A DNA stretch of 64,000 nucleotides from a virus, in the IMG/VR virus record IMGVR_UViG_3300032285_003360, positions 1 to 64,000 of that record; one strand, given 5' to 3'. This document shows positions 12,070 to 64,000 of this stretch, in pieces. Position numbers and translations under genes: made by a program. How positions within the stretch are numbered: the stretch's first letter is position 1; each line of letters starts with the position of its first letter. A model generated the notes under the pieces. The model was not told where the DNA came from. It worked only from the letters and a program-made list of their open reading frames with translations, and ran no database searches.

Positions 12070-12070
12070 A

Positions 12071-13267: not shown

Positions 13268-13282
13268 TGTTTATATTTTTAC

Positions 13283-13314: not shown

Positions 13315-13319
13315 TTTTT

Positions 13320-13641: not shown

Positions 13642-13646
13642 ATATG

Positions 13647-14921: not shown

Positions 14922-15166
14922 TATTCTTCTTCTAATATAATTCTATCTAATTCTTCATGTCTTAATGCCATGGTTTGACATTCTTCATTATAATCGGTTA
15001 ATAAAACAACTAACCATATTCCCATTTGATATTTCTTTACCTTGATTCTTTCGCCACAAATAAAACCAAGTTCCATTAATCTTAATTTAATACATGGTTG
15101 ACAATCATCACATGGCGTATTTTGCGGAACATCAATAATTCTATATGTTTTTCCAATTGTTAACAT
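14921..15166 (-). CDS. FeoA-like small domain protein
   Basis: 81 aa from ATG 15164-15166, which overlaps the upstream TAA by one base; longer frames start inside the upstream gene. MLTIGKTYRIIDV, then RLMELGFICGERIKVKK and a strand IWLVVLL match the SH3-like FeoA layout (L-x-E-[LM]-G). A CDDCQPC cluster, unusual for FeoA, is inserted and may bind metal. FeoA modulates ferrous iron uptake; the phage role is unknown. Confidence 0.7.
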   Translation of the reverse strand: MLTIGKTYRIIDVPQNTPCDDCQPCIKLRLMELGFICGERIKVKKYQMGIWLVVLLTDYNEECQTMALRHEELDRIILEEE

Positions 15167-15609: not shown

Positions 15610-15874
15610 CCTTAGAAGTTTCAACAGTCAAATTGGAACCTTCAATTTTTTGTTCAGATGCGTTAGCTCTAATTTTATTTATTACTTTAGTTGAATCGGC
15701 ATCAAATAAATTTAATTGCTTTACATTTTTGTCAATCATACCATAACCCACAGCCACGTCTCGGTTATAAATTTTCTCGTCTTCTAAAATTTTTAAATCT
15801 CTTATAACTACTTGATAATCAAGTGTTTCTTCTGGTAGGTTATTTAACCACTCTTTTAAATCTTTTACGTTCAT
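15596..15874 (-). CDS. Hypothetical protein (untagged, feeds into a tag overlap)
   Basis: 92 aa. Starts MNVKDLKEWLNNLPEETLDYQV, a motif seen in small phage/bacterial proteins of unknown role (helix D-L-x-x-W-L-x-x-L-P-[ED], then V). Untagged, yet its stop lies in the tag codons of the next gene with the same 14-base overlap (…ENI-stop). Confidence 0.75.
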   Translation of the reverse strand: MNVKDLKEWLNNLPEETLDYQVVIRDLKILEDEKIYNRDVAVGYGMIDKNVKQLNLFDADSTKVINKIRANASEQKIEGSNLTVETSKDENI

Positions 15875-45067: not shown

Positions 45068-46320
45068 GTAAACCAACATTATTATTTAGAGGACCAGTAA
45101 AAACAAGAAGCGGCTACGGTGCGCATTCGAGAGACGTTTTAAAAGCATTATATGAAATGGATGTATTTGATATAATGATTGATAGTTGTCCGTGGGGGAA
45201 CACACCTATGACAGCATTAGAAGATAACTTATTCCACAAGTGGATTGAGTCTAACATTGTTACATCATTAACGTCACAACCGGACATCTACATACAAGTT
45301 ACCGTTCCAAATGAATTCCAAAGAGTTGGTAAATTTAACATTGGTATAACTGCAGGTATTGAAACAACTGTCGCTCCTAAAAATTGGATAGATGGTTGTA
45401 ACAAAATGGATTTGATTATTGCTACATCAAGTTTTTCTAAGGATGTTTTATTATCAACTGTTTATAATGAAACGGAAAAGAATACTGGTAAGTTAGTTGG
45501 TCAATATAGAATTGAAAAACCAATTGAAGTTTTGTTTGAAGGTGTTGACCTTAACATTTATAACAATGAATCTACAGGTTTAGATATTGACATCAAAGAA
45601 GATTTTGCTTATCTTTTTGTAGGTCATTGGTTGAAGGGAGATATTGGACAGGATAGAAAAGATGTTGGTATGATGATTAAAGTATTTGCGGAAGCATTTA
45701 AGAATGAAGAAAACAAACCCGCATTGGTATTAAAGACATCAGCTGCGAGCTTTTCAATTAAGGAGAGGGAGAATATGAGAAAAAGAATACAAGACCTTGT
45801 ATCAAGTATTGAAAATCCTCCATCTGTTTATCTTTTGTTCGGTGAATTAACTGATGCTGAAATGAATGATTTATATAACCACCCAAAGATTAAATCAATG
45901 GTATCAATAACTAAAGGTGAAGGATTTGGAAGACCTTTACTTGAATTCTCAATGACAGGTAAACCAATCATCGCATCTAATTGGTCAGGGCATAAAGATT
46001 TTTTACCAATGGATAAAGCGGTTATGGTTGGTGGAAAATTAACTGAGGTTCATGCAAGTGCGATTGATGATTTTATTATTAAAGGTTCTAAATGGTTCAC
46101 AGCTAACTATAATGAATTTGCTGAAGTATTAAAGTTGGTTCAAAAAGATTACGAAAGATTTGTTGAGAAGTCTGAGGAATTAAGAAAAGAAAACGGAGAT
46201 AAGTTTTCATTTGAATCAATGAAGGTTACATTCAAAAATATTATTGAAAAATATAATAAAGTGACGCAAGCACCTGTTCAGACAAAATTAATTCTACCTA
46301 AGTTAACTAAAATAAAATAA
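45064..46320 (+). CDS. GT4-type glycosyltransferase
   Basis: 418 aa. N-terminal FRGPVKTRSGYGAHSRDVL (G-x-G-x-H loop), VLFEGVDLNIY, and KGEGFGRPLLEFSMTGKPIIASNWSGHKDF (donor site, E-x7-E). Same architecture as its neighbour, with a different acceptor loop, so probably consecutive steps on one glycan. Confidence 0.9.
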   Translation: MSKPTLLFRGPVKTRSGYGAHSRDVLKALYEMDVFDIMIDSCPWGNTPMTALEDNLFHKWIESNIVTSLTSQPDIYIQVTVPNEFQRVGKFNIGITAGIETTVAPKNWIDGCNKMDLIIATSSFSKDVLLSTVYNETEKNTGKLVGQYRIEKPIEVLFEGVDLNIYNNESTGLDIDIKEDFAYLFVGHWLKGDIGQDRKDVGMMIKVFAEAFKNEENKPALVLKTSAASFSIKERENMRKRIQDLVSSIENPPSVYLLFGELTDAEMNDLYNHPKIKSMVSITKGEGFGRPLLEFSMTGKPIIASNWSGHKDFLPMDKAVMVGGKLTEVHASAIDDFIIKGSKWFTANYNEFAEVLKLVQKDYERFVEKSEELRKENGDKFSFESMKVTFKNIIEKYNKVTQAPVQTKLILPKLTKIK

Positions 46321-46321
46321 C

Positions 46322-46570
46322 ATGGCAAAGAAAAAGACTCAACCAAAAGTTGAGATGAATATCGAAAAAGTAGTTCAGGAATATATTCCATGTGAATGGG
46401 TGATTCAGTTTGATAATGATGAACCCAAAGTATTTGCATCTTCCGATGTTAATTCATCTTCACATGAAGTGGTTTTTAAAATACCTAACACCAGTGAGTC
46501 GCACGTAACCTTTACTGACCCAATATCAAATAAGCGATTTAGTATATACGCAAGACCAAAAACAAGTTAA
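46322..46570 (+). CDS. Untagged paralogue of the tagged protein at 46571
   Basis: 82 aa. CEWVIQFDNDEPKVFASSDVN, then VTFTDPISNKRFSIYARPKTS. Aligns throughout with the next gene (FCFQFGDEEPVVFANGPN; MIFNDNGKVFKLFARPRV), but starts MAKKKTQPKVEMN in place of the tag. Probably a small beta-sandwich; I recall such domains beside glycosyltransferases or structural genes in phages. Function unknown. Confidence 0.8.
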   Translation: MAKKKTQPKVEMNIEKVVQEYIPCEWVIQFDNDEPKVFASSDVNSSSHEVVFKIPNTSESHVTFTDPISNKRFSIYARPKTS

Positions 46571-46810
46571 ATGGATTTTAAGTTTTTTAAAAGTGAAGAA
46601 TTAATACACGATAACTTTATTATATTACAACCTACAAATTTTGCACCTGAAAATGCTGAATTTTGTTTTCAATTTGGTGATGAGGAACCTGTTGTATTTG
46701 CTAATGGGCCAAATGAATGTCAAATTCGTATAAGTCCAACACCAGGTGGTAGTATGATATTCAATGATAATGGTAAAGTTTTTAAATTATTCGCAAGACC
46801 AAGAGTATGA
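46571..46810 (+). CDS. FKFF-tagged small beta protein (plus strand)
   Basis: 79 aa, starting MDFKFFKSEE. The body is a paralogue of the untagged gene just before it, so here the tag is the main N-terminal difference between two copies. Stop overlaps the next start (ATGATG/TGA). One of two tagged genes on the plus strand, 20 kb from any other. Confidence 0.85.
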   Translation: MDFKFFKSEELIHDNFIILQPTNFAPENAEFCFQFGDEEPVVFANGPNECQIRISPTPGGSMIFNDNGKVFKLFARPRV

Positions 46811-47235
46811 TGCACAAGTTTAAATTTTTTGAGGGGTTTCTTGAGAACGTATATGTGTTTGACACCGCTAATATTGTTGCGAGACATGTTCAGCATGGTG
46901 AAAGAACTTTACGTGCAACGTGGAGACCTGAACCAATAGAAGATATCTATTCACATCATGGGATAGATGCTGAGGCGGAATTAACAAGAATGCTATCAGC
47001 ACAATGGGCACAAGAGATTGACAATGATATCATTAGACGATTAAGAGAAATCATTGGTGAAGAAAATGAAACCGATGATGAAGTATTAAGAGGTATTGAA
47101 GTTTTAAATGGTAGAGTTGAAGAGAGTGTTGATACAATCAGAAGAGTAACAAGAAGAATAAATGGTGGGGACGATTTAGCAGATAACGCCGACTATCTTG
47201 GTAGATATTTGGATATAGGAGGAGATAGAGCATGA
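46807..47235 (+). CDS. FKFF-tagged protein with a gp23-like capsid segment
   Basis: 142 aa, starting MMHKFKFFEGFL. Residues about 33-82 (TLRATWRPEPIEDIY, HHGIDAEAELTRMLS, EIDNDIIRRL) align with the T4 major capsid protein gp23 segment containing ALKAEYTIELAQDLR, HGMDADAELSGIL and EINREVV, from memory about 15 identities in 48. The rest is helical and acidic with a coiled-coil-like DIVNG..VEESVDTIRRV region. A capsid fragment behind a tag suggests a capsid-related role. Confidence 0.8.
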   Translation: MMHKFKFFEGFLENVYVFDTANIVARHVQHGERTLRATWRPEPIEDIYSHHGIDAEAELTRMLSAQWAQEIDNDIIRRLREIIGEENETDDEVLRGIEVLNGRVEESVDTIRRVTRRINGGDDLADNADYLGRYLDIGGDRA

Positions 47236-47417
47236 GATGTGAAAGACATAGTTGGGACACAACTGACGCTGAATGGTGTTGGAAATGTGAAGAATTAACA
47301 ATAAACGAAAATAAAAAAAAATATGAAGATAAGTTTTGCGATAACAGTTTGCAACGAGATAAACGAGATAAGGAAATTAGTTCCGTTTCTGTTGGACCAC
47401 AAGAGACCTCAAGATGA
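47232..47417 (+). CDS. Small zinc-finger-like ORF overlapping the next gene
   Basis: 61 aa. C3-x-x-H near the start and C16-W-K-C19 form a plausible zinc site (CxxH-x10-CxxC). The last 31 codons lie in another frame of the glycosyltransferase at 47323, a 95-base overlap, far longer than usual here. Start overlaps the upstream stop by four bases (ATGA). Real N-terminus likely; C-terminus uncertain. Confidence 0.5.
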   Translation: MRCERHSWDTTDAEWCWKCEELTINENKKKYEDKFCDNSLQRDKRDKEISSVSVGPQETSR

Positions 47418-48066
47418 AATTGTAATCTTATATGATGAAAATAATGGTGATGCTCGCGTATTAGATTTCCTTTTACCTTATAACAAATTACCTAATGTTC
47501 AAACATGGAGAAGTTATGATTTTGATAGAAATTTCGCTAATTGGAAAAACTTATTAAACAGTTATTGTAAAGGTGATTTTATTTATCAATTGGATGCAGA
47601 TGAAATGATTAGCTCTTATATGGTAGAAAATTTACATACAATACTGGAAATGAATGATAAGGTTGACTTATATTTCGTTCCAAGAATCAATACCGTAAAT
47701 GGTTTAACTGAAGAAGATGTTATTAAATGGGGATGGAATTTATCTAAAATTGAAAGTCAAATAAATGAAAAAATTATAGACACTGAAAGTGAAGAATACA
47801 AATTATTAAAAAATGGTGGTTTTATAATTGAAGAAACGGATACTATGGGAAAAGTAAAAATTAAATATTACATGCCAATAATAAATGCTTACGACTACCA
47901 AGGTCGCATATATCGCAAGAACATGACATGGTATGGTAAGGTTCATGAAAGAATCATTGGTGGTGAGAAATTTGCATCATTACCCGATAATGAAGAATAT
48001 TGTATTCAACATCACAAAGACATCGATAGACAAAGAAAACAAAACGATTTATACAGCAAAATATGA
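47323..48066 (+). CDS. GT2-type glycosyltransferase
   Basis: 247 aa. GT-A fold start ISFAITVCNEINEIRKLVPFLL, EIVILYDENNGD, and the DXD-like QLDADEM metal site. C-terminus WYGKVHERI and HHKDIDRQRKQ match the family. Start must be here since the first strand follows immediately. Adds sugars, donor unknown. Confidence 0.88.
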   Translation: MKISFAITVCNEINEIRKLVPFLLDHKRPQDEIVILYDENNGDARVLDFLLPYNKLPNVQTWRSYDFDRNFANWKNLLNSYCKGDFIYQLDADEMISSYMVENLHTILEMNDKVDLYFVPRINTVNGLTEEDVIKWGWNLSKIESQINEKIIDTESEEYKLLKNGGFIIEETDTMGKVKIKYYMPIINAYDYQGRIYRKNMTWYGKVHERIIGGEKFASLPDNEEYCIQHHKDIDRQRKQNDLYSKI

Positions 48067-48605
48067 AAACACTAAAAGAAATTTATGGAGGTCATCAAAA
48101 CAATGAGCATTATGGTGACAAAGGAACTGTTCATACATACATCGATGTTTATGAAGACATTCTATCAAAGTATAGGGAGAATAGCACTGTTTTAGAAGTG
48201 GGTATTTTTCATGGTCATTCTTTAAAAATGTGGAATGAATATTTTATTAATTCAAAAATAATCGGTGCAGATATCACTGACGCTTATTTAAGAAATACAA
48301 TTAAAGAAGAGAAATATAATATAATAATTGCTGATGCCACCAAGGAAAGTTTTTTAGATAAATTAGGTGACGACACATTTGATGTCATTATCGATGATGG
48401 TAGTCATAAAATCAAAGACCAAGTTAAAACATTTAATTTATTAAAAACTAAAATGAATAAGGGCGGTCTTTATGTGATTGAAGATATTTCTAATCTTGAT
48501 GCCGATATTGAAGTATATAAGGAATTACACGATAATATTGAAATAATTGATAACAGACACATCAAGAATAGATTTGATGACGTTTTAATACTATATAAAT
48601 TTTAA
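48063..48605 (+). CDS. Class I SAM methyltransferase (CmcI-like)
   Basis: 180 aa. Motif I VLEVGIFHGHSLKMW, then IIGADIT, DDTFDVIIDDGSHKIKDQV and GGLYVIEDI: the cephalosporin-hydroxylase/CmcI-like methyltransferase pattern (D-D-G-S-H). Common in glycan gene clusters. Overlaps the GT2 stop by four bases. Confidence 0.86.
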   Translation: MKTLKEIYGGHQNNEHYGDKGTVHTYIDVYEDILSKYRENSTVLEVGIFHGHSLKMWNEYFINSKIIGADITDAYLRNTIKEEKYNIIIADATKESFLDKLGDDTFDVIIDDGSHKIKDQVKTFNLLKTKMNKGGLYVIEDISNLDADIEVYKELHDNIEIIDNRHIKNRFDDVLILYKF

Positions 48606-48608
48606 AAT

Positions 48609-49337
48609 ATGAGTTTAATAAGAACAAAAGGCGAAATCGATGTTACATTTTATAAAAATGAACAAGACAAACATCAATTTGGTAATGACAATGAATGGGT
48701 TAATGAACAAACCGAATTAAATTTGGGTAATATTGAATGTAGAATTGATATCCCCGCTTGGCAACAACGATATGAATATGAAGCAGGAATGTTAAATACT
48801 ATTATTCAAACAAATAACTTTAAAAAGATTATTGAATTAGGTTCAGGACCAGGTGCGTTAGGTCAAAAAATGATGGAAAAAATTGAATTGGATTATACAT
48901 TCATAGACCAACCAGGTGCAAAAAAAATATTTGAGGACAGGAAATACAAAGGTAAATTTTTAGTTAAAGATTTGATGAATGGTTTTGATACCTCTGATTT
49001 AGATGCTAACTATGATTTTTTAATTACCAACGATTTTTTGGAGCACATTTATAACCCTTCTATTGTTGTTCAAGAATCTTATAAATTGATTAGACCAAAT
49101 GGTAAAATGTTTGTGAGTGTTCCAAATTGGAGAATGGGTCACACTTTTATTTATAGGGGTTTATTTGATTTCGATAATTTCGTATATTTTATGCACACAC
49201 ATGGTTTTAAAATAAGTGGATTATATGAATCACCATTAAAGTGTGGTTATTCATCCAAATTATCTTCTGAATCGGAAATGGACGATAATTTAATAACGAG
49301 TTGGAATTGGTATATGTTGTTTGATAAAATAAATTAA
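48609..49337 (+). CDS. Class I SAM methyltransferase
   Basis: 242 aa. Motif I IIELGSGPGALGQKM near residue 78, DYTFIDQPG, then FLITNDFLEHIYNP and PNGKMFVSVPNW. Methyltransf_23/11 type. Probably acts on a sugar intermediate or polyprenyl-like carrier; unknown. Joined to the epimerase gene by TAATATG. Confidence 0.87.
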   Translation: MSLIRTKGEIDVTFYKNEQDKHQFGNDNEWVNEQTELNLGNIECRIDIPAWQQRYEYEAGMLNTIIQTNNFKKIIELGSGPGALGQKMMEKIELDYTFIDQPGAKKIFEDRKYKGKFLVKDLMNGFDTSDLDANYDFLITNDFLEHIYNPSIVVQESYKLIRPNGKMFVSVPNWRMGHTFIYRGLFDFDNFVYFMHTHGFKISGLYESPLKCGYSSKLSSESEMDDNLITSWNWYMLFDKIN

Positions 49338-49338
49338 T

Positions 49339-50337
49339 ATGAAAAGAGTTTTAATAACGGGTGTTGTGGGGTTACTTGGTTCAAGACTTGCTGATTTTTT
49401 AATCGACACACAAGAAGACATTTATGTAGTTGGTATTGATGATTTAAGTGGTGGATATATTGAGAACGTTAACCCAAAGGTTAAATTTTATCAAACAAAT
49501 CTTCTTGAGAAATCAATCTCAGTAATTTTTGAAATTGAAAAACCTGACTACGTTTATCATTTCGCAGCATATGCGGCTGAGGGATTATCACCCTTCATTA
49601 GAAGTTACAACTATCAAAACAATCTTGTTGCAACATCTCGTATTGTTAATGAATGTATTAAACATGATGTTAAAAGATTGATATTCACATCAACATTAGC
49701 GGTGTATGGTCATGGGTATGGTGGAGTATTTGATGAAAATCAAACGCCAAAACCAATTGATCCCTATGGTGTTGCAAAATATGGTTGTGAAATGGATATA
49801 CAGATTGCTGGTGAGCAGCATGGACTTGATTGGTGTATCATTAGACCTCACAATGTATATGGCCGTAATCAGAACATATGGGACAAATATCGTAATGTAT
49901 TGGGTATTTGGATGTATCAACATCTTAATGGTGAACCAATGACAATATTCGGTGACGGTAATCAAACAAGAGCTTTCAGTTATATTGACGATTCATTGGA
50001 GCCATTATGGCACGCAGCAATAGTTCCGCAAGCATCAAAACAAATTATTAATTTAGGAGGTATCGAAAGTCATTCAATTCGTGAAGCAAATAATATTCTT
50101 TTAGATATTGTAGGTGATGGAAATGTTGTATATTTGGAGCAAAGACATGAGGTTAAACATTCCATTCCAACTTGGCAAAAATCAGTAGACTATTTGGGAT
50201 TTGAACATAAAACAAATTTACATGATGGTTTAAGTCAAATGTGGGAATGGGCTAAAGAACAACCTAATCGTGATAGATTTGTGTGGAGCAATTATGAATT
50301 AGATAAAGGAATTTATTCGTTTTGGAAAACAAAGTAA
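49339..50337 (+). CDS. NAD-dependent sugar epimerase/dehydratase
   Basis: 332 aa. Rossmann motif ITGVVGLLGSRLAD (G-x-x-G-x-x-G), Ser/Thr in IFTSTLAVYG, catalytic Y-x-x-x-K in YGVAKYGCE, then RPHNVYGRNQN. UDP-glucose 4-epimerase-like extended SDR. Supplies a nucleotide sugar for the cluster. Confidence 0.92.
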   Translation: MKRVLITGVVGLLGSRLADFLIDTQEDIYVVGIDDLSGGYIENVNPKVKFYQTNLLEKSISVIFEIEKPDYVYHFAAYAAEGLSPFIRSYNYQNNLVATSRIVNECIKHDVKRLIFTSTLAVYGHGYGGVFDENQTPKPIDPYGVAKYGCEMDIQIAGEQHGLDWCIIRPHNVYGRNQNIWDKYRNVLGIWMYQHLNGEPMTIFGDGNQTRAFSYIDDSLEPLWHAAIVPQASKQIINLGGIESHSIREANNILLDIVGDGNVVYLEQRHEVKHSIPTWQKSVDYLGFEHKTNLHDGLSQMWEWAKEQPNRDRFVWSNYELDKGIYSFWKTK

Positions 50338-50338
50338 T

Positions 50339-50917
50339 ATGAAAATAGAATTTATAATACCAACATACAATAGACCGTATAAGTTGATGACAATTTTATC
50401 ATCAATCAAGTCACAAAGCATTGATGCTTGGAAGATACACGTTGTTGCAGATGCAATGTATGAAGGTTATGATGAAGTTAAAAATATCTTTATTAATGAC
50501 CCAAGAATTAGGTTTAGTGAGCTTAATGGTCCACATATGGATTATGGTCACACAGCAAGAAATTATGGTTTGGAGAATGCGAGTGAAGAATGGGTTGTGA
50601 TGAGTGGTGACGACAACTATTATGTTCCAGTGTTCTGTGAGTTATTTTTACAATCAATTAAAGATGAACCAAATGTTAATTTTGTTTATTGTAATATGGT
50701 TCATAATTGGGTTGACAATGATTACATACCAATTAGGTCTGTTCCGCAAATAAACGGGATTGATATCGGTAATTTTATGTCTAAAACCGAAAACGCTAAA
50801 CAATTAAGATTAGACGCAAGTAAAGTGAATGCTGATGGTGTGTTTGTTGAAGAATATTTGCAAAAGTTTCCCGCAGACATTTTACATATAGATAAATTAT
50901 TATACGTGCACAATTAA
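50339..50917 (+). CDS. GT2-type glycosyltransferase
   Basis: 192 aa. IEFIIPTYNRPYKLMTILSSI, then WKIHVVADAM, and ARNYGLENASEEWVVMSGDDNY (D-D-N metal site). Compact GT-A catalytic core without C-terminal domain. Confidence 0.88.
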   Translation: MKIEFIIPTYNRPYKLMTILSSIKSQSIDAWKIHVVADAMYEGYDEVKNIFINDPRIRFSELNGPHMDYGHTARNYGLENASEEWVVMSGDDNYYVPVFCELFLQSIKDEPNVNFVYCNMVHNWVDNDYIPIRSVPQINGIDIGNFMSKTENAKQLRLDASKVNADGVFVEEYLQKFPADILHIDKLLYVHN

Positions 50918-50918
50918 T

Positions 50919-51713
50919 ATGGTTAAGATTATATCAGGAGTTTCACATGTTGGTGGTTCAACTATTATATTAATAAATCTAACAAATTTATTTAATAGTA
51001 AAGGTATTGACACAACATTCTATGGCCCACATGATTTTCATATGGGTAAATGTAAATCGAAACAACTTAAAGATTTAAAGTTTAAAAAGAATGACATTGT
51101 AATGGCTCATCATTTGAAATATGATGAAAGACCAAACGTTAAAAGAATTGTTTTGGCTTGTCATGAAAAATGGTGGTTTGAGGTTGCGGATTGTCCGATG
51201 TATTGGGATACTGTTGTATTCAATCATGAAGAACAAAGAAACTATCATCACAGATATCAAGGACCGTTTGTTTATATCCCAAATCCAAAGGATGTTAATC
51301 AACCATTATATCCAATCGATAAACCTGAATTAGATTTAGTTGCGGGTGTTATCGGTAGCATCGAAGAAAGAAAACAAACACATATATCAATACAAAAAGC
51401 ATTAGATGATGGTTGCGAAAAGGTATTGGTTTATGGTAAAGTAATGGACGCTGAATATTATAAAAAGTATTGTAGGAAATATTATTTTCACCCTAACGTT
51501 CAATTCATGGATTATGCTGAAACTAAACAAGCTATGTATAATAGCATTGGTAGAGTTTATCATATGTCAATGGGTGAGGTATCGTGTTTGGTTAAAGATG
51601 AATGTCAATATACGAACACCAAATTCTTTGGAACTGAACAAACAAATCACATTGTCTCTGATTTAACAAATGATGAAATATTTGAACTTTGGAGAGACGT
51701 ATTAAAATTTTAA
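50919..51713 (+). CDS. Putative glycosyltransferase
   Basis: 264 aa. IISGVSHVGGSTIILINLTNLF (G-G-S loop at N-terminus), YPIDKPELDLVAGVIGSIEERKQTHISIQ and VLVYGKVMDAEYY match GT-B donor-domain strands. Lacks the clear E-x7-E of the other two GT4 enzymes, so the assignment is softer. Confidence 0.7.
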   Translation: MVKIISGVSHVGGSTIILINLTNLFNSKGIDTTFYGPHDFHMGKCKSKQLKDLKFKKNDIVMAHHLKYDERPNVKRIVLACHEKWWFEVADCPMYWDTVVFNHEEQRNYHHRYQGPFVYIPNPKDVNQPLYPIDKPELDLVAGVIGSIEERKQTHISIQKALDDGCEKVLVYGKVMDAEYYKKYCRKYYFHPNVQFMDYAETKQAMYNSIGRVYHMSMGEVSCLVKDECQYTNTKFFGTEQTNHIVSDLTNDEIFELWRDVLKF

Positions 51714-51715
51714 AA

Positions 51716-52822
51716 ATGGATATATCATTTGTATTAGCTGTATATAACAAATTAGATTTAACAAAAGATTGTTATCGATTACTTAGGGAGAAATACCCTG
51801 AGGCCCCATTAGTTATTAGTAGTGGTGGTTCATCGGATGGAACAAAGGAATGGTTGGAATCATTGGATGATGATTATCTTTCATACATTCATGATGATGA
51901 TAGATTAACGTTCTCCGACACATACAACGCGGGTATTAAACTTGTTGATACTGAGAAGGTTGTGTTGATTCATAATGATATGGTTATTGGTGAAGGATTC
52001 TTGGAATCAATTGAAAGATTATTAACACCCAATATGTTATTATCATATACAACAATTGAACCACCAATATTCAAAGGTCATCAAAGACCTGGTAAAGTAT
52101 TGTTAGACTTGGGAACATCTTTCCATAACTTTAATCATATTCATTTTAACAACTATGTTCAACAATGGAATCAAACAAATAATTTATACTCTGGTGCTGT
52201 ATTCTTCATGAGTGGTTATAAGAAAATGTTTGAAGATGTTGGTGGATTTGATGGATTTAGTTTTGTTCCTTGCTTCTGTGAAGATGATGACTTTTTAATT
52301 CGTGCTAAATTAAAGGGTTACGAATTAAAGACTTGTGATAGTGCAATTACATATCACTTTGTTTCTCAAACATCAAGATTCAGTGAGGAGATGAAAACCG
52401 ATAGAGGAAGAATCGAAATGAATTCAAATAGAAACTTCATTAGAAAATGGGGAATATCAATTTCATCGTTTAATGAATTAAGATATTGGGAAGATAATGC
52501 GTTTAAGTTCAACACATTCAATATGGGTTTAACAACTCGTAACAAAAATAACATTCATATATTGGAACCTTTCTTTGATAAGATTAACTTGGGTGAGATA
52601 CCTGAAGATTATATTGAGATGGAACAAAAGAATACTCGCTATGATTTAAGAAGTAAGTTCACATTGACTGAAACCGTGGATGTTATGATATATGAAACAA
52701 AACCATTTACGGATGAGGACCTTTACACATTACAAAAAATTAGATTATCATTACCCTATTACGAACCGGGTGAATACGAAAGTGGTAATATGAAGATAGA
52801 AATAAAAAAGGGACTTAATTAG
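51716..52822 (+). CDS. GT2-type glycosyltransferase
   Basis: 368 aa from ATG 51716-51718 (MDISFVLAVYN), which follows the upstream stop by two bases. LVISSGGSSDGTKEWLES, YIHDDDRLTFSDTYNAGIKL (D-D-D), VVLIHNDMVIGEGF, and FCEDDDFLIRAKLKGYELKTC. GT-A core plus a C-terminal extension of about 120 residues. Last gene of the plus-strand cluster; ends in the shared terminator. Confidence 0.88.
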   Translation: MDISFVLAVYNKLDLTKDCYRLLREKYPEAPLVISSGGSSDGTKEWLESLDDDYLSYIHDDDRLTFSDTYNAGIKLVDTEKVVLIHNDMVIGEGFLESIERLLTPNMLLSYTTIEPPIFKGHQRPGKVLLDLGTSFHNFNHIHFNNYVQQWNQTNNLYSGAVFFMSGYKKMFEDVGGFDGFSFVPCFCEDDDFLIRAKLKGYELKTCDSAITYHFVSQTSRFSEEMKTDRGRIEMNSNRNFIRKWGISISSFNELRYWEDNAFKFNTFNMGLTTRNKNNIHILEPFFDKINLGEIPEDYIEMEQKNTRYDLRSKFTLTETVDVMIYETKPFTDEDLYTLQKIRLSLPYYEPGEYESGNMKIEIKKGLN

Positions 52823-55627: not shown

Positions 55628-56194
55628 CTACTTCCACCACCAACCTTTTCCGTCTAAGGTGGCATAATCCATAATTAAATTAATCCTATCCTTGTTGCTG
55701 CTGTTTCTAACCTCATGTTCAACCAAATCATTTAACTCCCATACTTCACCTATTCTAAAGAATTTATCCTCGTCTCTAACGTTATAGACAATTTTTTCCT
55801 CTTCAGCGATTAGTGCCACATGTATTCTATGTGAAAGGGAATATGAGGGGCCAACGTCGATATGTCTACCGACGTTTTTCCCTGCAAATAATTTAACGAA
55901 CACCGCTCTTGCTATATAACCATCACCATATTCTTTTTTAAGAACTTCCAACAATGGCTTCATTAACTCTTCCATATTAAGTAAGTCCCAATACTTGTGC
56001 TTGGTTCCACCAAAATGTCTAAAGTCTTTGTCATATATCAACTGAATGGCTTGAGTTGAATGGTGAAATGATTTATATGATTCTTGTCTAAAAGTATCGG
56101 CACCCCAATCAGCGTCATCAATCTTACTAAGAGAGTCAATCATTGGTTGAGGGTCAATCTTACCCAAATACTTAAAGTTAATTCCTATATTCAT
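55628..56194 (-). CDS. Aspartyl/asparaginyl beta-hydroxylase-like oxygenase
   Basis: 188 aa from ATG 56192-56194, overlapping the permease stop (ATGA); the longer frame from 56302 runs through the permease gene. H-I-D in GRHIDVGPSYSLSHRIHVAL gives the first iron ligands, and EVWELNDLVEHEVRNSS with R-I-N-L gives the distal His and 2-oxoglutarate Arg. Hydroxylates a peptide or amino-acid side chain. Downstream of the halogenase cassette. Confidence 0.83.
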   Translation of the reverse strand: MNIGINFKYLGKIDPQPMIDSLSKIDDADWGADTFRQESYKSFHHSTQAIQLIYDKDFRHFGGTKHKYWDLLNMEELMKPLLEVLKKEYGDGYIARAVFVKLFAGKNVGRHIDVGPSYSLSHRIHVALIAEEEKIVYNVRDEDKFFRIGEVWELNDLVEHEVRNSSNKDRINLIMDYATLDGKGWWWK

Positions 56195-57198
56195 AAAATG
56201 GTTATTAATGCGTAGGTTATCATAATAGATATCCAAATTATTAATGCTTTTAAATATGTCATAAATCCTGTGTGGAAATACTTTTGACCTATTGGTAAAC
56301 ATTTATGTGATGGTGATATCAAATACCCTGCGTATTCTAATGTGAAGAATAAAACAAAGTAATGTAAACCAAACACACTTGTCAATAAGCTAACCATACT
56401 TGCATACTTTGCTGATGAACCTAACAAGAATGATGACAAGAATGATAACACACAAACAATAAGAATGTATTGTGGTTTATTGTATTGTTTAATCACCTCT
56501 TCAATTTGAGCTGAATATGAATTAACTAAGTTACCCAATACGATAACTGCAGCTACAATCCATATCAATTCCCAATTAATGTATTCAAGTAACTTTTTCC
56601 AACTACTTGAATAATATATTAACCATAATGTGAATCCTGTAAAGAATCCAAAGTAATAATCGGTAAAGAACACACACATCATGATTGTTACCAAGAATGG
56701 AATAACAACTAACATAATGTTCTTGGTATTGATTGGTTCATCTTTAACTTCGATATCAATCTCACTATCATCTAACGATATAACGTAGTATGTGATGTAT
56801 AATGCTGATATTAATAACAATGGCCAAATATATGACATAAACTGAACGTATGTTAATCCCAATACGGCCATTGGTATAATCACTGTCTTCTCTAATGGTG
56901 ACCATAGATAATAATGATGCGTTGCAAGATAATCAATGATACCAAACTTTTTACGTTTCTTGTTGTCAACTGGTGCAATACTATTCAACATAGATGCTGA
57001 GATTGCAACACGACCCGGTATTGGTAATATACCACCGAATAACGAAACCAAGAAGACAACCATCTTCTTTGATTTTACTTTTTGCTCTAATAATCTGAAG
57101 ATGTCCATAAGGTATCCCTTTTCTTTAAGGATACCTGTTACGAACATAATGAATATTAGATAAATTAAGAACTCTTGTCCTTTATATAATATTTCCAT
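56191..57198 (-). CDS. DUF401-like multi-pass permease
   Basis: 335 aa with about nine or ten hydrophobic helices. The FGGILPIPGRVAISASMLNSI loop near residue 53 is typical of DUF401, an ion-transporter-superfamily-like membrane family of unknown substrate. Inner membrane. Operon position between an outer-membrane barrel and a hydroxylase suggests uptake or export of a small molecule. Confidence 0.83.
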   Translation of the reverse strand: MEILYKGQEFLIYLIFIMFVTGILKEKGYLMDIFRLLEQKVKSKKMVVFLVSLFGGILPIPGRVAISASMLNSIAPVDNKKRKKFGIIDYLATHHYYLWSPLEKTVIIPMAVLGLTYVQFMSYIWPLLLISALYITYYVISLDDSEIDIEVKDEPINTKNIMLVVIPFLVTIMMCVFFTDYYFGFFTGFTLWLIYYSSSWKKLLEYINWELIWIVAAVIVLGNLVNSYSAQIEEVIKQYNKPQYILIVCVLSFLSSFLLGSSAKYASMVSLLTSVFGLHYFVLFFTLEYAGYLISPSHKCLPIGQKYFHTGFMTYLKALIIWISIMITYALITIL

Positions 57199-57204
57199 AA
57201 TAGT

Positions 57205-58077
57205 TTAATTAAATTTCCATCCGAAGATTACGAATGTTCTACTTGTTTTATTTGAATTACCAATACCAACCATAGGTTCGATATCAAGATATGCTTTGTT
57301 GTTTAATCTGAATTGCATTGATGGTCCAATTAGATTATCAAAACTTTTATCTAAGTAATTGTTTGTTCTTTCATGTGCATTCGCATATTGGCCAGAGAAA
57401 CCTAATGAGAAGTTTCTACTAAAGATATGTTGATATGAATAGGTTATTTGACCTTCGTTTGTTTTATCTTTATAAGGTGCTAAGTTTCCTTCATATACTA
57501 AGTTAACACTCCATAGATTATTCTTCTTAGGACCGAACGCATCACCTAATAATAACTTAGGTTCAACAACATCGTAACTATTATTTAAATGTTGATACTC
57601 AAAGTATAATGTTGGGTTACCCCACATCTTTCCCCAATCAGCTAAGGCGTATCTAACTTCCCACGATATTCCACGATTTTCAAATGAACCGTTGTTACCA
57701 TCGAATGTTTTTAAACCTAACATGTAAAGGTCTAACTCAAATCTGTGTCCTAAACCAAATGCCAACTCTTCACGAGTTCTCATTTCAGTTCCATTTCTAT
57801 AAGTTCTTAACTCTTGCCAATGTTCAAATGTAACAACGCCCGGTGCGTTCTGAACATAGATTCTTGAGTTAGGTGACTTTCTAAACTCAGACCAATAAGG
57901 TTGTTTGTATTCTCCAACTAAATCTGTTGGTAATGGTGTGAAGCTTTCAATTGTAACTTCATCTAAGACTTTGACGGTGTCTTTGTCAGGTGGTCTTAAT
58001 ACCTTGATGTCTTGCGCAAACGATGTGATTGCAACAAACATAACAGCTAACATTAGCGATAGCTTTTTTGTTCTCAT
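57205..58077 (-). CDS. Outer-membrane beta-barrel protein
   Basis: 290 aa. Signal peptide (MRTKKLSLMLAVMFVAITSFAQ, cut after A-Q-like site), then alternating aromatic strands (FELDLYMLGLKTF, TLYFEYQHLN, ITYSYQHIFSRNFSLGF) and a C-terminal aromatic ending (FVIFGWKFN), the outer-membrane sorting signal. Encoded by a phage, it would sit in the host outer membrane and could pair with the permease. Confidence 0.85.
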   Translation of the reverse strand: MRTKKLSLMLAVMFVAITSFAQDIKVLRPPDKDTVKVLDEVTIESFTPLPTDLVGEYKQPYWSEFRKSPNSRIYVQNAPGVVTFEHWQELRTYRNGTEMRTREELAFGLGHRFELDLYMLGLKTFDGNNGSFENRGISWEVRYALADWGKMWGNPTLYFEYQHLNNSYDVVEPKLLLGDAFGPKKNNLWSVNLVYEGNLAPYKDKTNEGQITYSYQHIFSRNFSLGFSGQYANAHERTNNYLDKSFDNLIGPSMQFRLNNKAYLDIEPMVGIGNSNKTSRTFVIFGWKFN

Positions 58078-58134
58078 CTTTTTCTATTTTATAAACGTTT
58101 ATTATTATTTATAATATAACAAAAAAAGATGAAA

Positions 58135-58467
58135 TTATAAAATGTGTTTAAGAATAATTGTTAAAGATATTACAATCCATAACGTATTGAAAACGATTAA
58201 AGTAGGTAAAGATTTCTTCATACTTGCCCATATCAATAATGATGATGTGCATAAGGTTAAAAAATGTAACCACCATATTTCTTTACCAAATACTAAACCA
58301 GGAACAATGATTGCAGCTTTAGCCATCCAAGCAGCAAATTCAATTGTGTTGTAGTTTGTCCAATATTCTTTATCGGTATACATTAAAATTTTATTCCATA
58401 TCTTTTGGAATCCAATAAAGTAGAACAAAACAAAAATGAAACAAAAATAAACTAATATATTAATCAC
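58135..58467 (-). CDS. Four-helix small membrane protein
   Basis: 110 aa, four hydrophobic segments (residues 3-23, 45-63, 66-84, 88-108). No known family. Overlaps the halogenase stop by eight bases, so translated with it. The 57 bases downstream to 58078 are A/T-rich with no gene. Confidence 0.75.
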   Translation of the reverse strand: MINILVYFCFIFVLFYFIGFQKIWNKILMYTDKEYWTNYNTIEFAAWMAKAAIIVPGLVFGKEIWWLHFLTLCTSSLLIWASMKKSLPTLIVFNTLWIVISLTIILKHIL

Positions 58468-59980
58468 GGTTGTAAAAATTTTTTAAATAATCATATATGT
58501 TAGGGAACAATTCACAAAGTGAATCAGATTCTCTTTTAATCAATTCAATGCGATGTTCACAAAGTTGTTTATACTTCTCGTGAATTTTCCATTGACAGTT
58601 TTTATAAAAACCCATACCCCATAACCATTGGAACCAGTTAACTGCTCCGAAGATTCTGCCTCTAAACATGTGTGCAGGTGGTTTATGTTCTAACACTTTA
58701 AACTTTTGAATTATCGTATCAGGTAAAAATGTTTTTTCATGAACGTCTCTCCAAAATTGTGTATCTCTTCTTTGACATAAATAGTAATGCGCAATAATAA
58801 AATCACGAATGTCAATCATCATATCGATGTTATCTCTGTTGATTGCATCAATAACTGGTTGACCATATTTTAATCCACTCTTTTCTAATTCAGTAACAAG
58901 TGTAGCCATAATACCTTGGAATGTTGAAATACCAGTTGATTCCATTGGTTCAGCAAATCCACTACTTAATCCACACGCAACCACATTCTTAACAGCAACT
59001 CTTTCACGTGTTCCAATTCTCATTTTAATTTTCATTACCTCACCATTATATCCATCATGGAACTCTCTAAATTCTTTTTCAGCATCTTCATCACTGATAT
59101 GGTTTGATGAATAAACGTAGCCACTTCCAATTCTACTATAGATTGGTGTCTTCCATAACCAACCGCTATTCATCGTATATAAACTCGAATAAGGTGTTAA
59201 TTCTTTTCTCTTATCTTTATATGGAATAGGTGCAACAACTGCTGTGTCGCAAAATAATGAATCTTTGAATGATATGAATGGTTCACCCATTACCGCTTCA
59301 ATTAATGCCGCTCTAAATCCTGAACAATCAATATAGATATCTGCACTATATTTTGATCTATCCATCATTTTTAATTCCTTAACAAAACCAAACGCATCTA
59401 ACTTAACTTCTTTTAAATCAGCTTCAACAATCTTAACACCATTTGGTATTGCTACTTTATCTCTCAATACGTCAGCAAATTTTCTTGCATCAAAGTTGTA
59501 ACTATAAAAACTTTCTAACTTAGATAACTTTGGTGAATAAGAAATGTCTTCTTCAAAGTTTGGACAAATATTCATATCAGCCATCTTCGCTGTTAAATGA
59601 ATGTCATTAATCTTTTTATGGTCGCCTGCGTATTCAGACACCAAGTATTCATGTAAGTTTAAATCATCTGTAATAAAGTGTCTACTTTCATTCTCAACAA
59701 GAACCATGTGTTCACCATCTTCAGACCAATTCATAAACTTACCACCATACTTGTATACCGCATCACATTCATTCATCCATTCACTTTCTTTTAAACCAAG
59801 GAACGACATAAAAGATTGTAAGCTCGCAGTTGAGCTCTCACCAACACCAATGGTTGGGATAAGTTTACTATGTATCAAGGTAATGTCTACTTTACCTTTG
59901 AACATTTTTGACAATAATGATGCAGTCATCATACCAGCAGTTCCACCGCCTAAGATGACAATTTTTTTAACGTCTAACAT
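58460..59980 (-). CDS. Flavin-dependent halogenase (tryptophan halogenase family)
   Basis: 506 aa. FAD site GGGTAGM at residues 11-17, VGESS at 46-50, catalytic Lys77 in YKYGGKFMNW, YIDCSGFRAAL, and SGWLWKTPI, which corresponds to the W-x-W-x-I-P halogenase hallmark. Full length for the family (500-540 aa). Chlorinates, brominates or iodinates an aromatic substrate; substrate unknown. Viral halogenases have a cyanophage precedent. Confidence 0.92.
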   Translation of the reverse strand: MLDVKKIVILGGGTAGMMTASLLSKMFKGKVDITLIHSKLIPTIGVGESSTASLQSFMSFLGLKESEWMNECDAVYKYGGKFMNWSEDGEHMVLVENESRHFITDDLNLHEYLVSEYAGDHKKINDIHLTAKMADMNICPNFEEDISYSPKLSKLESFYSYNFDARKFADVLRDKVAIPNGVKIVEADLKEVKLDAFGFVKELKMMDRSKYSADIYIDCSGFRAALIEAVMGEPFISFKDSLFCDTAVVAPIPYKDKRKELTPYSSLYTMNSGWLWKTPIYSRIGSGYVYSSNHISDEDAEKEFREFHDGYNGEVMKIKMRIGTRERVAVKNVVACGLSSGFAEPMESTGISTFQGIMATLVTELEKSGLKYGQPVIDAINRDNIDMMIDIRDFIIAHYYLCQRRDTQFWRDVHEKTFLPDTIIQKFKVLEHKPPAHMFRGRIFGAVNWFQWLWGMGFYKNCQWKIHEKYKQLCEHRIELIKRESDSLCELFPNIYDYLKNFYNRD

Positions 59981-59990: not shown

Positions 59991-60725
59991 TTAAGAACCT
60001 GGTGTGTAAGTTTGTTCAGCGAATCTTGTGTCTCCCGGAATTACTGTTGTATCAAATGGTAATCTTATATTGATAATATCATCCCCATCAGCATCTTTTA
60101 ATTGTTTCACGTATCCTTCTTGTGCGGCAAATAAACTCGCAATAGTTGCATTGTAATTTGTAACAGCAGTCAATACTTGTGAAGCCAATGTGCTAACATC
60201 AGTTCCTCTTGCAGTTGCTAACATAGAAAGCGTTGGTGTTGCTGCAGTATTATCTGCAGTAAACGCAATTGCTTCAGCTTGTTGTGCCGCCCATGTAGCT
60301 TGTTCTTGAGGTGTTTTGTTAACCAACAAATTTTTAAATTGCTGTTTATAATATTCTTGAACTTGTTGAATTCTTAACCAACGAATTGTGTCATATCTAT
60401 CAGATACTTCTTGGTCCGTCATCGGTCTTTTAATTCTAATACCTTTTTGTTTATCAAACTCCTCATCAAAAAATTCAGCTTCTGAAGCAGATGAATATGT
60501 TTTAAATAATCTTGCAGCATCTTTTGTTGCGATATAAAATTGAATTCCGTTCTCAACATAACTTGGTGCTAATCGAATACCGTAACGTTCAGTTATTGAT
60601 ATTGCGATTTGATTAATGTCAGGAACCTTTACGATGTAAAAGTTTTCAGCATATCCAACCATTTCGACACCACTTAATAATGGTGCAACGTCATTTACCG
60701 GAATTCTATAAGCTACTAAGTCCAT
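59991..60725 (-). CDS. Putative virion/structural protein
   Basis: 244 aa. No membrane or catalytic motif. Ala/Thr-rich central region (about 130-195, AQQAEAIAFTADNTAATPT) looks like a helical or fibrous stalk; flanking segments are globular. Between the halogenase and fibre genes; structural role is inference. TAATATG joins it to the gene at 60727. Confidence 0.7.
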   Translation of the reverse strand: MDLVAYRIPVNDVAPLLSGVEMVGYAENFYIVKVPDINQIAISITERYGIRLAPSYVENGIQFYIATKDAARLFKTYSSASEAEFFDEEFDKQKGIRIKRPMTDQEVSDRYDTIRWLRIQQVQEYYKQQFKNLLVNKTPQEQATWAAQQAEAIAFTADNTAATPTLSMLATARGTDVSTLASQVLTAVTNYNATIASLFAAQEGYVKQLKDADGDDIINIRLPFDTTVIPGDTRFAEQTYTPGS

Positions 60726-60726
60726 A

Positions 60727-61380
60727 TTATAAATCTATTTGTTTAATTTGTGTTTTGTCAATTATTTTTGCAATGTCCTCATCTGTAACCATATCAAGAT
60801 ATTGCACTTGTTTTTGAACATCTCTTGTTATTCTTGTTGATTCAATTAATGTCTTTTGGAATAAGTCTTCACCCATTTGCATCATTGCTTCTAAGTTACC
60901 TGCACCGATTCTTCCTACTGTCAATACTTCCAATGCTGCTTGAGCACCCATTCTTCTTACCCAATAGTCTTCTTCTAATTGTTCTTGATTATCAATGAAG
61001 TTTTGGACGTCATAATTTTCTTTAAACCAATTGTAAATTCTTTCTAATGATGCGATTTCACTTTGAGTTCTTCCTAATGCTCTTACTGAATTCTCTTGTG
61101 CTGCAGCAAATTTGTCTTTCTCAATTTGATATAATTCTCTTTGTGCAGGCGATGTCTCAACCGCAATTTGTTCATCCAACAATTTTTGTTCTGCAATGTT
61201 TTTTCTTTGGTCTAACTTGATGGTTTCTTCCATTGTTTTTCTAACCTCCAATTCCATCAACACTTGTTTAAATTGTTTGTAAGCACTGTGTTGTGAATTA
61301 ACAACGAATTTATTAATCTGAAATGTGGACATTGAAAACGAAAACTTTTCAAATTCTTCTGGTAATTTATCTGATGTCAT
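60727..61380 (-). CDS. Putative virion protein with coiled coil
   Basis: 217 aa. Long charged helices (VRKTMEETIKLDQRKNIAEQKLLDEQIA), with IGAGNLEAMMQMGEDLFQKT near the C-terminus. Unknown, probably a virion or assembly component. Starts the unit downstream of the paralogous fibre genes. Confidence 0.7.
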   Translation of the reverse strand: MTSDKLPEEFEKFSFSMSTFQINKFVVNSQHSAYKQFKQVLMELEVRKTMEETIKLDQRKNIAEQKLLDEQIAVETSPAQRELYQIEKDKFAAAQENSVRALGRTQSEIASLERIYNWFKENYDVQNFIDNQEQLEEDYWVRRMGAQAALEVLTVGRIGAGNLEAMMQMGEDLFQKTLIESTRITRDVQKQVQYLDMVTDEDIAKIIDKTQIKQIDL

Positions 61381-61429: not shown

Positions 61430-62470
61430 TTAAAATGATGACCACATTGGAGATGCTGAAGATAATGCTCTTGGTGCATCACTAATGTTTACAATAGTAT
61501 CCGTATTATAGTTTTGTCTATCTGTATGTGCATTTTGTGAACCGTTATAACCACCGGCCCAATAGCCGTGATTCTGTCCTAATACACCAGGGTTTTCACC
61601 GTTTGTGATTGTTTGTCTACCTGCACTAACTGTCCAAGTGTTTGTTGATGATGTGAATAAATAAACTGTATATCCATCAGCACCGTTTGTATGTGACGTG
61701 AAACAGTTATTTGTTCCGATGTAATGTTTACCCCATTTACTTGGAACAGCATGTTCAGAGTTACAAGCGTTTACTTGACCTAAATCTAACATATTACTAT
61801 TTGTTGTAATTGATGCAATCGACTCTGATGTCCAATCCATTCTAAAAGTATATTGAGCTCCAGCATCATATGCGGATGTTGCCCAACCGTAATATCTATC
61901 AAACCAACTTGCACCATATCTTCCTGATAAGCCATTACTATTTGTGGCCCAAGTCTCTGTTCCAAATGTTAATATATCCATATTAGCACTACCATTACCT
62001 GTTTGATATGCTTTAGTTCCATATGATGCTAAAGTATTATATGTTCCACCTGCTGTTATAGTGTTAACAGATACATCAAAACCAATACCATGTTGAATTG
62101 ATACAGGACTAGAACCACCGTTGTAGTTTCTATTTGCAATTTGTTGAACTGATTCTGTTGGAAAGTTAACGCGTTGATTATACAACCAAGAACTTTGGTC
62201 GCTTTCAAATACATAACCATTTGTAAACGCTGTCGCCCATCCACCGTATTTTGTTCCGTGTGGTAAAGAGTTTGCAGATGTCGACCAACCGTCTGTTGCA
62301 AATTGTATTTTTGTAATTGCAGTCCAACCCGCACCGCCTTGATAACCGCCACCTAAGAAACCTCTAATTAAATTTAAACCATATAAATAACTTTCCTGAT
62401 AGAAGCCAAATATGTCTCTACTATTCTGTAATAATGCATTTGTAATTGTTACGTCTCCGTTTACTATCAT
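61430..62470 (-). CDS. Fibre/propeller-like virion protein, tandem paralogue 1
   Basis: 346 aa. Starts MIVNGDVTI, followed by repeats of about 45-50 residues, each with GGY or GYW-A, W, and a central aromatic strand; C-terminus YWAGGYNGSQNAHTDRQNYNTDTIVNISDAPR..LSSASPMWSSF is shared with both neighbours. Kelch-like beta-propeller or fibre head, probably host-binding. Paralogue of 62483 and 63495. Confidence 0.82.
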   Translation of the reverse strand: MIVNGDVTITNALLQNSRDIFGFYQESYLYGLNLIRGFLGGGYQGGAGWTAITKIQFATDGWSTSANSLPHGTKYGGWATAFTNGYVFESDQSSWLYNQRVNFPTESVQQIANRNYNGGSSPVSIQHGIGFDVSVNTITAGGTYNTLASYGTKAYQTGNGSANMDILTFGTETWATNSNGLSGRYGASWFDRYYGWATSAYDAGAQYTFRMDWTSESIASITTNSNMLDLGQVNACNSEHAVPSKWGKHYIGTNNCFTSHTNGADGYTVYLFTSSTNTWTVSAGRQTITNGENPGVLGQNHGYWAGGYNGSQNAHTDRQNYNTDTIVNISDAPRALSSASPMWSSF

Positions 62471-62482
62471 CTATCTATATTT

Positions 62483-63490
62483 TTAACTTAAAACTATTGC
62501 GCCTGATCCACTCCACATCGGTGCACCTGAAGACAATGACCTCGGCGCATCAAATATTTGTCTTATTGTTTCACTACCATAATCAATTCTATCACTATGT
62601 GCATTTTGCACACCACTATAACCACCCGCAAAATACCCGTGGTTTTGTCCCATCACACCCGATTGTTCTGAATTTCCTAATGTTTGTTTATATAATATAC
62701 CAATCCATGTGCTTGTGCTATTTAAAAACTTTGCACAGTTTTGACCAGTTGATGTTCCAACATAATTTTGGTCCCCACACATAAAACATTTACCATCTTT
62801 TGTATTAACTGGTTTTTGCCAATAACCTGGGCTACCAAATCCTGCAACACCACTGTATGTGTTTGTTGTAGATAATACAGCCCAACTTTCAGATGATGTT
62901 GTCATTTTTTGTGTTGTTGTTCCATAGTTAACCCACGAATAATATTTGTCAAACCATCCTGATGTTTCTTGTGTGTCAGGTGCACTACCGCTTGATAATG
63001 CTGCAGCCGTTTCAGTTGCAAACACCCATCTATCCCAATAACCTCCGTTTGCGTAACCACCATGATATGCTTTAGTTCCATAAGCGGTTCCATCTGTGTT
63101 GAATCCAACACCTTCTTGAACTGACCATGGGTTCGCACCACCATAGTTTTTACTTCCACATGTTGAGGTTGTTTCAGCTGCAAAATTAAATTTTTGCATA
63201 CCTGTTGCACTATCTCTTTGTGCATTACCACAATAACCATTCAATGCTGAACTTGACCACGTTCCATATTTTGTTGCATATGGTAATGTGTTTGAAGCTG
63301 TGCTCCAAGCATCAGTTGCATTTGCAATTTTAGTTACAGTATTCCATATAGAACTACTAACATAACCACCGCCAATATATCCTTTTGATAATGTTAATCC
63401 ATGTTTATAATCATCAGTGAAAACTTGTTTTAAAACTGTTCCATTTTTTGATATGGTTCCTGTAAAATTTATATTTCCGTTTACTATCAT
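62483..63490 (-). CDS. Fibre/propeller-like virion protein, tandem paralogue 2
   Basis: 335 aa from MIVNGNINFTG (ATG 63488-63490); the longer frame runs into its neighbour. Same N-terminal MIVNG and C-terminal YFAGGYSGVQNAHSDRIDY..DAPRSLSSGAPMW. Middle repeats diverge and are Cys/Gly-rich. Tandem copies favour recombination and receptor variation. Confidence 0.82.
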   Translation of the reverse strand: MIVNGNINFTGTISKNGTVLKQVFTDDYKHGLTLSKGYIGGGYVSSSIWNTVTKIANATDAWSTASNTLPYATKYGTWSSSALNGYCGNAQRDSATGMQKFNFAAETTSTCGSKNYGGANPWSVQEGVGFNTDGTAYGTKAYHGGYANGGYWDRWVFATETAAALSSGSAPDTQETSGWFDKYYSWVNYGTTTQKMTTSSESWAVLSTTNTYSGVAGFGSPGYWQKPVNTKDGKCFMCGDQNYVGTSTGQNCAKFLNSTSTWIGILYKQTLGNSEQSGVMGQNHGYFAGGYSGVQNAHSDRIDYGSETIRQIFDAPRSLSSGAPMWSGSGAIVLS

Positions 63491-63494
63491 AATA

Positions 63495-64000
63495 TTAAAT
63501 TGGTGACCATAATGGTGCAGCTGATGACAATGATCTTGGTGCATCCGAAATATTAACAATGTTGTCAGTATCGTAATATATTTTATCACTATGCGCATTT
63601 TGACCTGTTGATGTATTATAACCACCTGCTAAATAACCATAAGCTTGGCCCATGGTTCCTGAATTTTCACAGTTCTGTAATGTTTGGTTATAATAATTTA
63701 AAGTCCATGTTGCAATGTTATTTCTAAACTGATACATTTTTGTATCAGATGTGCTACCGTCTGTTGTTAAATAAAATTTACCTCTTTTGGAGTTTAACCC
63801 TTTTTCCAAATAACCTGCGCCACCACCCCATCCAAATGTTCTTGGTGTGTTTGTTGTTCCATATGTTGACCACGATTCGGTTGCAAATGTCATGATATAT
63901 GTATTTGAACTATCCCAACCATAACCGTAATCTCTGTCAAACCATGCCGCATGATAAGCTGATTGCATGATACCTGAATTGGTTGTTGATGACCATGTAT
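63495..64000 (-). CDS. Fibre/propeller-like virion protein, paralogue 3 (partial)
   Basis: Open across the right edge, so its N-terminus is missing; 168 codons visible. C-terminus YLAGGYN.STGQNAHSDKIYY..ISDAPRSLSSAAPLWSPI matches the other two. The apparent ATG at 63968 is internal. Confidence 0.8.
   Translation of the reverse strand, partial: TWSSTTNSGIMQSAYHAAWFDRDYGYGWDSSNTYIMTFATESWSTYGTTNTPRTFGWGGGAGYLEKGLNSKRGKFYLTTDGSTSDTKMYQFRNNIATWTLNYYNQTLQNCENSGTMGQAYGYLAGGYNTSTGQNAHSDKIYYDTDNIVNISDAPRSLSSAAPLWSPI

Follow-up and report, generated by a model that had tools for sequence, protein, structure and literature searches.

We examined a string of five genes in a 64,000-nucleotide stretch of viral DNA (positions 1 to 64,000 of the IMG/VR record IMGVR_UViG_3300032285_003360, hereafter the window), which is part of a 101,769-base viral record. 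All five lie on the minus strand. In the direction of transcription, two tail-region genes are followed by genes for a flavin-dependent halogenase (HAL, 506 amino acids, 58460-59980), a small polytopic membrane protein (MEM4, 110 amino acids, GTG start, 58135-58467), an outer-membrane protein (OMP), here a barrel with a signal peptide and the TonB-box-like motif LDEVTIES (57205-58077), a permease (PERM, 335 amino acids, 56191-57198), and an Asp/Asn-type 2-oxoglutarate (2OG)-Fe(II) hydroxylase (HYD, 188 amino acids, 55628-56194). A preliminary description had reported five co-oriented and mostly overlapping genes, one of them for an intact halogenase, lying between virion genes. All five open reading frames (ORFs) were confirmed on the minus strand and are intact. 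Overlap holds for HAL/MEM4 (8 nucleotides) and PERM/HYD (4 nucleotides) but not for the rest, where the gaps measure 10, 57, 6 and 15 nucleotides. The virion neighbourhood can be refined to tail type, as a tail fibre gene lies farther upstream of the cassette at 64479-70256 of the record (phrog_5073, 1e-94). A gene order not shared by any relative had been named as grounds for refutation, and the cassette passes this check: the order v217-v244-HAL-MEM4-OMP-PERM-HYD, beginning with the two tail-region genes, is kept in five further contigs, namely four HAL relatives from a viral-contig scan and contig L076. One of the five encodes proteins identical to those of the window. A promoter and terminator scan gave no clear excess over shuffled sequence.

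Both enzymes conform to their original assignments. HAL matches PF04820 (1.8e-111) and phrog_2928 (4e-103), and it carries GGGTAG at residue 11, Lys77 within YKYG, WLWKTP at 274 (the expected WxWxxP) and EPMESTG at 344; the catalytic lysine is invariant in the halogenase alignment. Its closest PDB chains are Trp 5-, 6- and 7-halogenases, and the VirX1 chain 6qgm was also matched (5e-64). Judged by family and motifs, HAL is an intact flavin-dependent halogenase of the tryptophan type. HYD matches PF05118 at about 5.4e-11 to 8e-11, a match that covers only the C-terminal half of the profile, and has the HxD...H motif with a distal arginine (HID...H...R; H111, D113, H160 and R170). Its start is most likely at 56194, giving 188 residues, because the TGA of PERM and the ATG of HYD overlap as ATGA and relatives carry an in-frame TAA upstream. 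A longer HYD ORF was rejected on account of that TAA and because its 36-residue extension is the 3' end of PERM read in another frame. No Pfam family matched MEM4, which has homologues of 65-85% identity in related contigs; in a distant phage group, homologues of 48-52% identity immediately precede PERM.

PERM was described from the start as DUF401-like, and it scores above the curated cut-off of that family (PF04165, 2.2e-12, 47.5 bits against 24). Its match to TIGR00529 (6.8e-18) reaches 65 bits against a curated score of 378, indicating a related protein rather than an equivalog, and a match to CitMHS is sub-threshold; we class PERM as a putative IT-superfamily permease. The family is present in PHROGs as phrog_14035 (1.9e-80), where it is annotated as of unknown function. 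Profile searches found relatives in 438 and then in at least 570 viral contigs. In a scan of cellular genomes the sole relative was on one 6.8-kb contig of a metagenome-assembled genome (MAG), a search of 145 genomes of that MAG's phylum returned only that contig and one weak partial match, and a scan of plasmids returned none. A cellular origin of the permease was rejected on these scans; at the sensitivity of the searches, the PERM clade is essentially confined to viruses.

The third gene had been assigned to an outer-membrane barrel, and structure prediction agrees. The AlphaFold2 (AF2) model shows 12 strands along with a signal helix and a disordered segment (predicted local distance difference test (pLDDT) 74.8, predicted template-modelling score 0.70). 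The best Foldseek match is FapF (8.5e-10, template-modelling score 0.55), followed by small monomeric channels of the COG4313, NanC and KdgM kinds. FapF and the COG4313 channels share with the window barrel a 12-strand barrel and an N-terminal segment, at only 9-12% identity; FapF exports amyloid and is not known to have a TonB box or a permease partner. No Pfam family matched the window barrel, although a homologue in contig L164 is above the PF13557 cut-off. A classical TonB-dependent receptor has a 22-strand barrel with a plug; the window barrel, whose model shows 12 strands and lacks a plug domain, does not belong to that class. In contigs L003, L019 and L166 the same slot holds an alternative allele, a protein of about 600 residues resembling a TonB-dependent receptor (TBDR-like) with the TonB boxes LKEVVVVGG and LNPVTVTAT, which we tentatively take to be such a receptor. 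A TonB-box-like motif occurs in 63 of 64 barrels and TBDR-like proteins and in 8 of 2399 other proteins, by a pattern that was drawn up with these OMP sequences in view. Profile searches of the barrel, the TBDR-like protein and the permease against the PDB gave no usable match.

PERM and OMP keep company across phages. Around 125 distinct permeases, OMP-like genes account for 60 of 218 direct PERM neighbours and for 3 of 1235 other genes, by a crude rule (signal peptide plus C-terminal aromatic residue) and in counts that ignore relatedness; conversely, 62 of 69 testable distinct barrels and TBDR-like proteins have PERM within two genes. The two OMP types replace one another beside the permease. 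Contigs L003 and L004 share 99.0% identity upstream and 99.9% downstream of the OMP body, and one has the receptor-like body, the other a barrel; one breakpoint of the exchange falls just past the TonB-box-like motif, and the second coincides with the start of PERM. At least five changes between barrel and TBDR-like types can be placed on the permease tree, and in the distant phage group, which has PERM, MEM4 and HAL in another order, homologues of both types again alternate beside PERM, at 49-62% (barrel) and 46-49% (TBDR-like) identity. Still other phages have an unrelated OMP (cluster c21) after PERM, at 15 loci, with one member matching OMP_b-brl at 3.9e-8 and another below threshold. Finally, in two contigs PERM and barrel are fused as one ORF without stops (L337:2625-4247 and L340:920-2554, 540 and 544 amino acids, 63% identical to each other; L334 is 99.5% identical to L340). 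In the fusion, the final permease helix leads into an AxA-type site (AKA|D or VNA|E), then a TonB-box-like motif and the barrel; this helix apparently doubles as a signal peptide, and cleavage would occur at the AxA-type site. Adjacency, allele exchange and gene fusion together show that PERM and OMP belong together as a unit, and the preliminary idea of proteins spanning both membranes survives in this form.

Such exchanges are also what superinfection exclusion would produce, with the OMP, and perhaps the permease, altering the host surface or competing for TonB and so blocking phages that use TonB receptors, and with the swaps recording an arms race. The precise, recent replacement of OMP bodies between near-identical phages fits this explanation, as do the repeated changes on the permease tree, the TonB boxes and the site beside tail genes. 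OMP alleles are moreover common to phage groups with different translation signals and therefore probably different hosts. However, it leaves unexplained why OMPs of unrelated families should be adjacent or fused to a single family of permease, OMP type does not track tail type, and none of the five proteins has a match among PADLOC defence systems. We regard this explanation as unlikely, though deserving of real weight.

The enzymes follow other genes. Most close relatives (type A, 55 contigs) carry, where HAL would stand, a radical S-adenosylmethionine (SAM) enzyme (PF04055, 5e-9), a cysteine-motif protein without a Pfam family that we label U32-like, and a Methyltransf_24 protein (PF13578, 3.8e-6). 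The U32-like label is our own reading of the sequence, and its cysteine motifs alone suggest an Fe-S role. Upstream of HAL on the minus strand lie the tail-region genes v244 and v217 (59991-61380; phrog_2618/1604 and phrog_1409), whose allele type tracks HAL/HYD, and FIB, tandem tail-region proteins in an exchangeable block (61430-63625; phrog_1417 for 61430-62470). Between HAL/HYD-type and radical-SAM-type phages, median identity is 0 for FIB (no detectable similarity), 26-30% for v217 and 19-24% for v244, against 45-67% and 77-87% within types. For PERM, v155 and GT, comparisons across types give about the same identity as comparisons inside a type, with PERM medians of 77-85% and maxima of 82-92%. 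HAL/HYD phages sit at three places on the permease tree, and HYD, which OMP-PERM separates from HAL, switches together with it in all three cases; MEM4 switches with nearly all HAL changes, and OMP type does so inconsistently. Among 76 distinct viral HAL loci, 2OG oxygenases lie within four genes at 60, tail genes within six genes at 43, and PERM within four genes at a single one. These patterns of identity and neighbourhood show that inheritance of HAL and HYD is tied to the tail-protein allele rather than to the permease.

If the enzymes supplied the cargo of PERM, its specificity should track the enzyme set, yet it does not, and we therefore consider that the enzyme product is probably not what PERM carries. 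This bears on the proposal of the preliminary description that the five genes together could produce or transport a modified small molecule or peptide, taken here as one pathway whose halogenated and hydroxylated product leaves through permease and barrel. A single pathway would account for the conserved order, the translational coupling, the co-inheritance of HAL and HYD and the strings of HAL, oxygenase, MEM4, PERM and OMP in the distant phage group, and the best fold match of the barrel is to a polypeptide exporter. Set against these are the indifference of PERM to enzyme type, OMP changes independent of HAL, the absence of a halogenase from most PERM/OMP loci and the lone PERM among the 76 HAL loci. 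The proposal does not hold up well, and we judge it the least probable of the explanations considered here.

Tailoring enzymes of some kind are nevertheless seldom far from the permease. At 92 of 107 distinct PERM loci at least one is nearby: U32-like proteins at 75, radical SAM at 39, 2OG oxygenases at 40, HAL at 19 and HYD at 3. In the cyanophages S-H25 and metaG-MbCM1 the permease is preceded by a fused U32-like:methyltransferase and a 2OG-like protein. The gene for the latter, before PERM, has no Pfam match itself and a PHROG label of endonuclease V; we call it 2OG-like only via cluster c6, one member of which is just below the PF13640 cut-off. S-CAM4 is another cultured cyanophage that carries PERM. 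At other loci, HAL, 2OG oxygenases and U32-like proteins are combined in strings of varying make-up. These associations are what one would expect if PERM and OMP served cofactor supply, importing either 2-oxoglutarate or iron, the iron in the form of an iron-carboxylate as with CitMHS, to supply the many Fe-dependent enzymes of these phages (2OG oxygenases, radical SAM and U32-like proteins) or to furnish tail iron. Such a role would account for the indifference of PERM to enzyme type, and it agrees with the sub-threshold CitMHS match and the TBDR-like allele. The remaining 15 of the 107 loci lack such enzymes nearby, however, and the Fe-S role of the most frequent partner is read from cysteine motifs only, so that we think this explanation distinctly improbable. 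As a separate observation, the U32-peptidase-like protein, with several conserved cysteines and fused to or placed before Methyltransf_24 (phrog_1458, unknown), as at L022:4043-5083, L085:1186-2814 and L006:2925-4508, is found in 123 cyanophage records and in most PERM loci.

The explanation we favor, to which we give about an even chance, is that one operon-like string holds two modules: PERM and OMP for transport, HAL and HYD for tail-linked tailoring. In the first, PERM and OMP, often with MEM4, would form a phage-specific transport unit across both membranes. The OMP, coupled to TonB through its TonB box, would let in a small solute, for which the IT-superfamily and CitMHS relationship makes an organic anion or metal-organate the most likely candidate, and PERM would then pass it through the inner membrane for the benefit of the infected cell. 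Because PERM is indifferent to enzyme type, this cargo would be common to all enzyme sets. In the second, HAL and HYD would be one of several exchangeable oxidative or SAM tailoring sets, acting on a target that depends on tail type, either the adhesin itself or a surface or glycan component, with a product distinct from the permease cargo. Beyond this lies a more specific proposal, which we advance tentatively and rate somewhat short of even: an unrecognized class of phage trans-envelope transporter, in which a virus-specific permease and an interchangeable TonB-box OMP (12-strand mini-channel or TBDR-like), made in some lineages as a polyprotein split by signal peptidase, would give the phage private, TonB-energized uptake.

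Several points weigh against these proposals. On the side of transport, the TBDR-like protein has no match in Pfam (PF07715 plug, PF00593 barrel) or the PDB. Its AF2 model, built from 6 sequences, reached a pLDDT of 26 and was not used, and its sole named match, to the plug region of an Emticicia TonB-dependent receptor (32% identity), is weak (2e-6) and spans 16% of its length. TonB boxes are short motifs, from which we infer coupling to TonB. IT-superfamily proteins can also export, and both direction and substrate of transport are inferred. On the side of tailoring, the joint change of HAL and HYD rests on three independent changes, too few for significance (p=0.25), and since HAL adjoins tail genes, its linkage to them would arise in part from position alone. 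The idea that HAL halogenates adhesin tryptophans was unsupported, with tail proteins containing 1.2% tryptophan in halogenase loci and 2.6% in loci without a halogenase. Lastly, given how many PERM loci lie near tailoring enzymes, the modules may still cooperate.

The preliminary description considered the combination new to phages, and this appears true in part. Phage halogenases are already well known. VirX1 of cyanophage Syn10 and the PrnA homologues of T4-like cyanophages have the family and motifs of HAL, and several known examples likewise lie in structural-gene regions; most are 28-35% identical to HAL, which differs in being interleaved with OMP and permease and in belonging to a phage with Bacteroidota-type translation starts. 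Phage genes for outer-membrane barrels are known as well: Lc of phage PA-2 is a trimeric porin that changes the host surface and is not known to have a dedicated permease, whereas the window barrel has 12 predicted strands and a TonB box and is paired with, or in relatives fused to, a permease. Bacterial TonB-dependent transport also joins a TonB-box-bearing OMP to an inner-membrane transporter. Here the components are phage-encoded, no periplasmic binding protein or ABC transporter was seen, and the barrel allele, a predicted 12-strand protein, lacks a plug domain. Clusters of halogenases, 2OG oxygenases and carbamoyltransferases are on record from jumbo cyanophages, for which a secondary metabolite or decoration of capsule or surface was proposed (PMC7824862), and they share with our cassette a halogenase together with hydroxylases. 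The section consulted describes no permease or OMP among them, and the enzyme set of our cassette differs in being exchangeable and tied to tail alleles. Phrase searches of open-licence papers found no description of a phage permease-OMP pair, fused or not. It is the permease-outer-membrane unit that appears to be new.

Phages are known for metabolic genes and occasional porins, but we found no description of two matching transport proteins dedicated to the inner and the outer membrane, in places even fused. The permease is widespread among viruses (at least 570 contigs) and all but missing from the scanned cellular genomes, which suggests that infected cells need something host genes do not provide. 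The carriers are large phages, mostly from uncultured viral sequences. Phages that are 99% identical and differ mainly in OMP body, and those that swap enzymes along with tail alleles, are natural experiments on what phages import and on what their halogenases act. As to the host, Shine-Dalgarno motifs precede 5 of 97 genes of the window phage against 3.9 expected, and upstream regions are A-rich; together with the signal peptides, this suggests a host among the Bacteroidota. A tRNA search found none, and no direct host link was found.

Other features were seen around these genes and their relatives. Viral halogenases (L190-L269) commonly follow tail genes in company with runs of different 2OG-Fe(II) oxygenases, and sometimes occur two or three together. 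A long array of radical SAM/SPASM enzymes and 2OG oxygenases adjoins the 1925-residue tail fibre at 70-101 kb of G000 (L009:6312-19000 and L010:1-14931), and it further holds a carbamoyltransferase, APS kinase and glycosyltransferases. In the window itself, genes for glycosyltransferase, epimerase and methyltransferase enzymes make up a plus-strand block (43712-52822) that faces the cassette and differs in gene content among relatives. At 106-15624 (minus) and 46571-47235 (plus), 23 of 142 predicted proteins start with a short FKF[F/L] motif (as in MKTFKFL and MKPFKFF) and otherwise differ in sequence; the motif is possibly a tag for targeting or capsid packaging.

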